From Mycobacteriales bacterium (GTDB lineage Bacteria > Actinomycetota > Actinomycetes > DATLTS01), in assembly GCA_035533475.1 (NCBI GenBank), contig DATLTS010000006.1, forward strand, positions 1-64,000: a stretch of DNA of 64,000 bases, given 5' to 3'. How positions within the stretch are numbered: the first letter of the stretch is position 1; each line of letters begins with the position of its first letter. Shown here one piece after another: positions 13,789-64,000 of the stretch. A model generated the notes under the pieces. That model saw only the letters and a list, made by a program, of their open reading frames with translations. It had not been told where the DNA came from and ran no database searches. Made by a program: the position numbers and the translations under genes.

Positions 13789-14173
13789 TCTGTACGAAAG
13801 GGAGGCTGAAGCGGTGGCAGGAAAGTCACGACGAGTCACATCACCCCTTGTGGCAAGGTGGCGGATCGTAGACATGGACCTCTGGGCCCAAGAGGACGTC
13901 GACCTCGTCGCTCCGGGGTTCATCGAGTTCGAACCGGACCACATGGGCAGTCTCGGGTTCATTGCGGTCCAAGGTGGGATCGACTGGCGCGACGCACCTC
14001 GTGACGGACACCCCGGTGTGGAGTTCTCTTGGGAGGGCTTCGACGAGGGTGACCACACCACCGGTCGGGGGTGGGCTGCCGTCGAAGATGATGGCAGGCT
14101 TCGAGGCCACCTCTTCTTCCACCGTGGCGACGATTCGGGCTTCCGGGCCGAGCGCACAGGCGACACGCGATGA
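13778..14173 (+). CDS. Conserved hypothetical protein (W-S-W-E-G / G-R-G-W-A family)
   Basis: A 131-residue protein of a family I recognise as a recurrent hypothetical in accessory regions. It shows M-D-L-W near residue 33, P-G-F-I-E-F, V-E-F-S-W-E-G-F-D-E, G-R-G-W-A-A-V-E-D-D-G and F-F-H-R-G-D-D-S-G-F in order. No catalytic motif or membrane segment is visible. It starts at the ATG 13778, inside the end of the toxin remnant, and overlaps the next gene by four bases, suggesting a two- or three-gene unit. The role is unknown; the location beside TA loci hints at a defence or TA-like module but does not prove it. Confidence 0.7.
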   Translation: MVADLYEREAEAVAGKSRRVTSPLVARWRIVDMDLWAQEDVDLVAPGFIEFEPDHMGSLGFIAVQGGIDWRDAPRDGHPGVEFSWEGFDEGDHTTGRGWAAVEDDGRLRGHLFFHRGDDSGFRAERTGDTR

Positions 14174-62602: not shown

Positions 62603-62675
62603 GGGGCTATAGCTCAGCTGGTAGAGCACTTGCTCGGCAGGCAAGGGGTCAGGGGTTCGAATCCCCTTAGCTCCA
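62603..62675 (+). tRNA. tRNA-Ala (anticodon GGC)
   Basis: The acceptor GGGGCTA pairs with TAGCTCC and contains the G3-T70 pair that identifies alanine tRNA. The anticodon stem CTTGC/GCAAG encloses T-C-G-G-C-A-G, giving GGC. The T-arm has GGTTCGAATCC. The 3' half is overlapped on the other strand by the recombinase frame. Confidence 0.96.
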
Positions 62676-64000
62676 CAAGCGTTTCGTATTCGAACTCGCC
62701 GCCGGTGAAAAGGTCGTCGAAGGGCGGCCGGTAGCTGACTTCGGCGACCTGGCCGTCTTTGACGACGAGGCGGTCGAAGACCGCGGTGTTGAACAGTCGG
62801 CGGGTCTTGTCGTCGGCTTTGCGGTAGGCCTCGGCGCAGCGGGTGGCGAAGCGTGCCGCCAGGGTGAGGATCTCCTGCCATTCGGTCAAGTTCGCGTCGA
62901 GAGCCTCGAGGGAGTCTTTCGCGGCGGTGATGTCACGCCCGATGCGGTCCTGCTCGACTTTGAGGGTGGCGACGTCGATCGCGCCGGTGTAGTAGGCGTC
63001 GAGCAGTTTGCGCCGCTGGGTCTGGGCCCGGGCGAGTTGGTGGGTGAGGAATTCGCGCTGGCCGGCGTCGCGGTGCTGCCGTTCGATGGCTTCGGCGGCC
63101 ATCTCCTCTTCCAGCCGGCGGAGCCAGGAGGTGGGCAGTTGGATGCGGTCGTAGAGCGCTGCGATCTGGGTTTCGAGTTTCTCGGCGGGCACGTAGGGCT
63201 CGCGGCAGGTGCCGGCCGGATCGCTTTTCTGGCCGAGGCAGTAGAAGTAGGTGTAGGCGCCCTTGGAGAGCTGGACCGAGAGGCGCCGGGCGCACACCCC
63301 GCAGAACAGGCTGCCTTTGAGGTAGTGCGGGTGTTTGCGTTCCCGGCAGCCCCGCACGGAGCGGGCGGCGAGGAGTTCGCGGACCCGTCGGTAGGTGTCG
63401 GGGGAGACGAGCGGCTGGTGGGTGCCGGGGTGCTGCACGCCGTTCCACTCGACGATGCCGGTGTAGGCGGGGTTGGCGAGGATCTTCGCCAGCCCTTGCC
63501 AGCTGATCGGCGCGGACGGCTTGGACCGGCTGCCCCGGTTCGTGAGCCCGCGGTGCCCCAACTCCTCGGCGAGGGTCTGCAATGTCCACTCGCCGGTCGC
63601 GTAGGCCTCGAACGCGAGCGTGATCAGCGGTGCGCGTGCCGGGTCGGGCACGATCCGGGCGACTTGCCGGCCGGCGATGATCTCGCGGGTGTTGAGGTAG
63701 CCCAGTGGCGCGGTGTGCGGGAACCCGCCCTGCTTGGCTTTCTGGGTCATGCCCTTTTTGATCTCGGAGGCCAGGTTGGCGGAGTAGAACTCGGCCATCA
63801 ACGCGTGGATGCCTTCCACCAGCCGGCCGGAGGCGCTTTCTTCCAGGTTTTCGGTGACGCTGACCAGGGCCACCTTGCATTTGCGCAGCAGCGCCCGGAT
63901 CGCGACGTGGTCTTCCATGTTGCGGGCCAGCCGGTCGATCTTGTGCACGACGACCGCGTCGACGTCCCGGTCGGTGGCGATCCGGGCGAGCATGGCTTTG
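62614..64000 (-). CDS. Large serine recombinase/integrase, N-terminus outside window
   Basis: At least 461 residues of a large serine recombinase. The resolvase-domain end is visible (V-V-V-H-K-I-D-R-L-A-R-N), then the recombinase domain (G-Y-L-N-T-R, A-Y-T-G-I-V-E-W), a zinc ribbon (F-C-G-V-C at about residues 222-226 of the visible part, and C-x9-C further on) and a coiled coil. The catalytic serine and true start lie beyond base 64000. The last 21 or so residues (L-V-E-L-R-G-F-E-P-L-T-P-C) are encoded antisense inside tRNA-Ala, and the stop is within the tRNA. That fits an element integrated at the tRNA 3' end, with the junction inside the recombinase coding end. Confidence 0.88.
   Translation of the reverse strand, partial: KAMLARIATDRDVDAVVVHKIDRLARNMEDHVAIRALLRKCKVALVSVTENLEESASGRLVEGIHALMAEFYSANLASEIKKGMTQKAKQGGFPHTAPLGYLNTREIIAGRQVARIVPDPARAPLITLAFEAYATGEWTLQTLAEELGHRGLTNRGSRSKPSAPISWQGLAKILANPAYTGIVEWNGVQHPGTHQPLVSPDTYRRVRELLAARSVRGCRERKHPHYLKGSLFCGVCARRLSVQLSKGAYTYFYCLGQKSDPAGTCREPYVPAEKLETQIAALYDRIQLPTSWLRRLEEEMAAEAIERQHRDAGQREFLTHQLARAQTQRRKLLDAYYTGAIDVATLKVEQDRIGRDITAAKDSLEALDANLTEWQEILTLAARFATRCAEAYRKADDKTRRLFNTAVFDRLVVKDGQVAEVSYRPPFDDLFTGGEFEYETLVELRGFEPLTPCLPSKCSTS
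62630..62690. mobile_element. Putative attachment site/left end of an integrated element at tRNA-Ala
   Basis: The recombinase reading frame enters the tRNA-Ala gene from the 3' side, as in elements whose attachment core lies in the 3' half of a tRNA. The exact crossover cannot be fixed without the other end, which is outside the window. The listed span is approximate. Confidence 0.5.

Follow-up and report, generated by a model that had tools for sequence, protein, structure and literature searches.

A large serine recombinase (LSR) whose reading frame ends inside a tRNA gene raises the question of whether the overlap is an accident or the trace of integration and, if the latter, what becomes of the end of the enzyme. 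The sequence analysed (the window, 64,000 bases) comprises bases 1-64000 of C6, a 70,746-base contig in a 3.27 Mb draft genome of 68 contigs. The minus-strand frame and the tRNA found by ARAGORN agree that the LSR stop codon lies within tRNA-Ala(GGC), as the initial annotation had proposed; its statement that the last 21 or so codons lie antisense in the tRNA holds for the orientation but not for the count, which is 20. These codons read V-E-L-R-G-F-E-P-L-T-P-C-L-P-S-K-C-S-T-S, and the frame is intact at the tRNA. The gene starts beyond the window edge, at about 64188 on C6. Before the tRNA stand an RsfS-like frame and a phosphatase-like frame, named by the look of their translations, and this stretch, tRNA included, has counterparts in many genomes of the same class. 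The features are collected in Table 1.

Table 1. Features at the left end of the element, with coordinates in the window
Feature	Position	Strand	Basis or remark
LSR gene, attL form	stop 62614-62616; window part to 64000	-	
20 LSR codons antisense to tRNA-Ala(GGC)	62617-62676	-	would replace the native tail left at attR
tRNA-Ala(GGC), intact, putative integration target	62603-62676	+	ARAGORN; single copy in the draft genome by own-genome search
T-loop motif GGTTCGAA of the tRNA, proposed B half-site recognition motif	62654-62661	+	constant spacing from the core across the family
attL core CCAC, tRNA positions 71-74	62673-62676	+	common to the attR core, contig C6 70,490-70,493
TTCGAACTC, inverted T-loop mimic, element P' arm	62689-62697	+	sequence; family geometry

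The protein carries the domains Resolvase (8e-33), Recombinase (3e-10) and Zn_ribbon_recom (1e-8), all above the Pfam cut-off, and its best Foldseek matches are the Bxb1, PhiC31 and LI integrases. The catalytic-domain motifs are invariant in the family alignment. A model of the integrated form, of moderate confidence (pTM 0.36), predicts that residues 498-525 are disordered and that they lie past the last folded element, so integration would alter only the tail of the LSR.

We gathered relatives of the enzyme from two sources, 395 genomes of the class and a named genome collection. In 102 distinct relatives the sequence extends past the end of the recombinase gene, and in 91 of these a tRNA or tmRNA gene follows, antisense. 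Among the 84 genes that are uninterrupted, 81 read the T-arm in one and the same frame (G-F-E-P); because of these counts, the ending of the LSR frame in a tRNA is, on comparative grounds, more than chance. Among the other 11 relatives, L181 represents an uninterrupted form, and several still read T-arm-like sequence. The family uses 25 kinds of target, drawn from tRNAs for Ala, Val, Arg, Leu, Pro, Glu, Gly, Met, Ile, Lys and Ser as well as tmRNA, and the nearest enzymes, 68-77% identical, are found in tRNA-Gly, tRNA-Ala(CGC), tRNA-Ala(GGC) and tmRNA. The relatives' record titles name Actinomycetota (including Acidimicrobiales, Thermoleophilia and Coriobacteriia), Bacillota and Saccharibacteria, many of the records being metagenome bins for which some host names may be wrong.

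The att sites of the family have a common geometry. Read in the sense of the recombinase, nearly every attL consists of a GGTTCGAA-like motif, 12 or 13 nt, the dinucleotide GT, 13 nt and the T-loop sequence TTCGAACC; the GT is the antisense of A73-C74 and is GA or GC in tRNA-Gly and tRNA-Ser cases. The conserved T-arm of the tRNA would make up the B half-site, and an inverted T-loop mimic stands on the element arm; in the window the mimic TTCGAACTC is 12 nt from the core, within the recombinase coding sequence. Across elements the mimics (TTCGAA) are separated from the core by about 12-13 nt on the P' side and by 18 nt on the P side; P is about 5 nt farther from the core than P' or B. Because tRNAs keep a fixed spacing between T-loop and acceptor end, many isotypes can serve as targets. 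In serine integrases P and P' are near-symmetric and B is shorter. The exact crossover dinucleotide is probably 71-72, a placement that would make P and P' almost symmetric and leave B shorter by about 5 bp. The P' arm of several attL sites (e.g. L047, L050 and L067) often contains a G+C-rich hairpin, in some sites with T residues after it; such a hairpin could act as a terminator for tRNA transcripts that enter the recombinase gene.

An element integrated at the tRNA 3' end and extending to the right had been proposed from the window; with attL here, the search placed the right end on C6 at 70,490-70,493, a distance of 7.8 kb. The rule used for attR (core, N16 and the T-loop mimic TTCGAACC) was derived from the empty sites of the relative G110, described below, and from G131. 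Scanning 81 loci (729 kb) gave six exact matches at a spacing of 16, against four summed over 36 other spacings. Contig C6 contains one exact match, at offset -7817, and the window attR is a candidate identified by motif, through this exact match and a conserved tail. The element would be 7,817 bp long, spanning about 62,673 to 70,493 of C6, with attR beyond the window; attL and attR share 4 bp, CCAC (tRNA positions 71-74), as is expected of a serine recombinase. Across the family the shared run was at least 4 bp, and usually 4-7 bp, in 10 of 10 attL/attR comparisons, a 4-bp match being a precondition in eight of them. The initial annotation had recommended a search for a second copy of the tRNA 3' end as attR. 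The draft genome has none, only the 4-bp core and the T-loop mimic, and no long tRNA 3'-end duplication was found in the regions beside relatives; this test is the wrong one for serine recombinases, and here it would have rejected a correct reading.

The predicted attB of the window element is tRNA-Ala(GGC) followed by TTCTCAATGTGTACC. No empty site for this element was found among the compared genomes, because they include no close relative and are related to the source genome at class level only. Empty sites were found for G110: in G198 and G324, tRNA-Leu(CAA) directly joins sequence like the flank of the G110 attR. The G110 attR lies 19.5 kb from its attL, the empty site GGGCTACC is joined to the attR-flank-like sequence, and the shared run is CTACC. 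These two empty sites support the inferred element boundaries of this one relative. An 11-nt match at +9.2 kb in G110 was rejected as attR, since the empty sites place it at +19.5 kb. The empty-site search for G337, in tRNA-Arg(CCT), gave no matching flank.

Within the element, a Replic_Relax protein is encoded at C6 64,783-66,582, and a frame within C6 67,060-68,409 contains sigma-70 region 2, the sole domain match among the main other frames. The scan, which took in the main open frames and part of the small ones, found no translocase. A Phd/YefM-like antitoxin frame (translation by eye) begins at about C6 70,494, beyond the window on the chromosomal side of the deduced attR.

Joining the two element ends gives the predicted junction AACGCTTCACCACAAGCGTT and the deduced attP GGTTCGAATAAGAACAACGCTTCACCACAAGCGTTTCGTATTCGAACTC. 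Across this join the LSR frame stays open into an element-encoded native tail (...FEYETL followed directly by VVKRCSYSNPSGIRDGLRALAPT), which bears out the proposal that excision would alter the LSR C-terminus. Native tails of the window type are short and alike (VVKRCSYSNPSGIRDGLRALAPT, ELLCCRYSNPDELREQLSYLVGVICRALEP, VGRRHSYSNLADLSRRLRALPRETD and others), are in frame from the core on, and have the common motif YSN(P/L)..L...L (YSNPxxLRxxLxxL). Those of the G110 type are longer and form a zinc ribbon (CRCGCG...FVxQxH); in six orphan attR copies this tail starts precisely at the core, and what precedes it is unrelated sequence. Additionally, the uninterrupted LSR gene L181, 54% identical and located on a single contig not closed into a circle, has the predicted attP geometry in frame: GTTCGAA-N13-GTGC-N16-TTCGAAC, then V followed by LLTGHYSNLPDLRFRGGNS. 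Because the native tails are conserved, with dN/dS of 0.11-0.38 past the att site (pairs with unsaturated dS only), they probably matter in at least one state. This conservation argues for importance in the free form, and a role for the tail swap in directionality is plausible.

A search by pattern for further attP copies in 390 genomes and IMG/VR returned four genome and 32 viral matches, none on an in-frame LSR, and the phage and plasmid collections contained no relative of at least 60% identity and no tail homologue. An IMG/VR tail homologue (L157) was judged spurious. Palindromic symmetry of attP was also considered and set aside: a 7-bp inverted repeat round the core of the window attP is suggestive, but across elements the symmetry is no better than random.

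The locus is thus very probably the attL of a 7.8-kb element inserted by its own LSR at the acceptor end of tRNA-Ala(GGC), with attP within the LSR reading frame. The LSR would recognise the T-arm, a feature of almost every tRNA and of tmRNA; this arm would form one attB half, and crossover would take place in the 4-bp core at tRNA positions 71-74. The tRNA would stay intact because the core and the sequence following it restore its last bases. In the LSR reading frame, attP would sit just past the folded zinc-ribbon/coiled-coil part, and in the free circle the gene would read through attP into the conserved native tail. Integration would cut off this tail and strand it at attR without a start; in its place the enzyme would gain about 20 residues encoded antisense to the tRNA, until excision brought the native tail back. 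We are confident of the structure and the mode of integration. The DNA itself shows where both ends and the core lie, and it shows one relative's empty sites, the conservation of the tails, the uninterrupted gene and the family geometry; from these we infer the activity of the LSR and any changed behaviour of the enzyme after tail loss.

Several other explanations bear on this reading. Loss of an upstream stop codon could carry a recombinase into a neighbouring tRNA by chance, with no integration, but such read-through has next to no probability given the proportion of relatives that adjoin a tRNA or tmRNA (91 of 102), the fixed spacing, the single frame and the empty sites of a relative. We also consider it very improbable that the tRNA 3' end is duplicated in attP, in the manner of tyrosine-integrase elements, so that the LSR naturally ends in tRNA-like sequence and the attR tails are remnants of unrelated genes. 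T-loop-like motifs do occur on both element arms, as a tRNA copy would predict; however, most pairs share only 4-5 bp, and the tails, which continue the frame from the core on, are homologous to one another; in L181 the tail is continuous with the gene. That the element is a fixed, immobile remnant seems unlikely, even with a frame-broken second copy in tRNA-Glu of the same genome, for the LSR frame is intact, both ends fit the rule, and the relatives that are 68-77% identical sit in different tRNAs.

As to the tail exchange, the att site may simply overlap the end of the gene, the enzyme working equally with either tail and the overlap being a by-product of compactness, and we give this account close to an even chance. 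The tails differ by branch (a short helix in some, a zinc ribbon in others), the reading frame of integrated copies stays open across many different, unrelated ends supplied by tRNAs, and the tail is outside the folded part, all of which fit an exchange without function; the conservation of the native tails beyond the att site (dN/dS 0.11-0.38) does not. More tentatively, we suggest that the LSR belongs to a widespread bacterial clade for which the T-arm is a near-universal landing site and the enzyme's own reading frame serves as attP, the tail swap acting as a built-in switch. Under such a switch the integrated enzyme would be locked against re-reaction, or would need a partner, until excision restored the tail.

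Integration by this family at the T-arm is accompanied by changes of target. The recombinases of L210 and L213 are identical over the aligned part and have the same 25-nt P' arm, one being in tRNA-Val(CAC) and the other in tRNA-Ala(CGC), and the near-identical recombinases of L200 and L217 are in tRNA-Val(GAC) and tRNA-Val(CAC). The tRNAs of the switched pairs have the four-base core in common, and identity stops at GTGG, so the exchange would have been inside or next to the core. On a tree built with FastTree only, 36 changes of target isotype were counted, compared with 54-60 in shuffles, and 16 changes of core, compared with 27-29. L210 and L213 have in common about 11.5 kb of element sequence that is 94-98% identical, and their records are named Roseburia and Saccharibacteria; either the element has recently passed from one phylum to another or one of the contigs has been mis-binned.

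The integrases of PhiC31, Bxb1, A118/LI and TP901-1 resemble the present LSR in the order Resolvase-Recombinase-Zn ribbon, the coiled coil and the short shared core. In contrast to those systems, the family described here targets tmRNA and a wide range of tRNAs at the T-arm and acceptor end, and attP lies within the LSR frame with the C-terminal tail exchanged on integration. Serine recombinases also integrate into the 3' part of a tRNA gene in mycobacterial AICEs, where the target is a single tRNA-Leu gene, and in the filamentous phage phiRSM1, located in tRNA-Ser and cited in the same paper (Ghinet et al. 2011, PMC3218068); that paper calls such integration rare, names only these two cases and, in its passages on them, gives no T-arm rule and no att site inside the gene, unlike what is described here. 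The AICE gene set (an FtsK/TraB-type translocase with replication and integrase genes) was not found complete among the scanned frames of the present element, which does have Replic_Relax, and we refrain from calling it an AICE. Tyrosine-integrase elements in tRNA genes differ in enzyme class and in their long tRNA 3'-end duplication.

An att site inside the integrase gene, a tRNA target and a gene changed by integration are also found in the archaeal SSV-type suicidal tyrosine integrases, and a review (PMC8371274) regards recombinases that disrupt their own gene as confined to archaea. The enzyme classes are unrelated (bacterial serine here, archaeal tyrosine there), and integration of SSV type separates the catalytic part, whereas here only the tail is exchanged and all folded domains stay. 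In the integration-dependent immunity of mycobacteriophages (PMC8092301), attP is likewise inside a gene and residues are added from bacterial sequence upon integration; the changed gene there is the repressor, and tRNA-overlapping attB sites serve tyrosine integrases, unlike here. A search of the open-access literature, with subscription papers and unpublished island databases outside its scope, found no description of the T-arm rule or the tail exchange. The present family would be a bacterial serine-recombinase counterpart to the archaeal integrases with the target in their own gene, and a rule of T-loop plus four bases, 71-74, would account for the range of a single integrase lineage, 25 kinds of target in several phyla. 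It is a possible explanation for annotated recombinases that end in ...GFEP..., and searches for duplicated tRNA ends miss such elements. A short att rule could also yield integrases with conserved, gene-sparing landing sites.

Further recombinases were noted in the course of the survey. The source genome has a second copy of this LSR type (L006, G000:C59), with about 72% DNA identity and a broken frame, which also ends inside a tRNA, tRNA-Glu(CTC) at 13979-14052. L161 has two successive attR-like sites (offsets -8461 and -7596 from the core) and L172 an attP-like P'-core-P junction (offset -7406), which suggests tandem or repeated insertions. Many LSRs on viral contigs (L243-L317, mostly 26-34% identical) have a conserved C-terminal stretch, CSxL...K.EP..FV.G.FG.V, possibly the native tail of another branch, and one viral contig (L253/L358) has two TTCGAA motifs. 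L318, L319, L322 and L327, from other genomes, adjoin tRNA genes too. Two more LSRs of the source genome, L320 (G000:C20) and L342 (G000:C68), are about 27% identical, are read in frame into tmRNA and tRNA-Arg(CCG), respectively, and have a T-loop-like motif 14 nt before the core; the tail-swap arrangement may reach beyond this clade.
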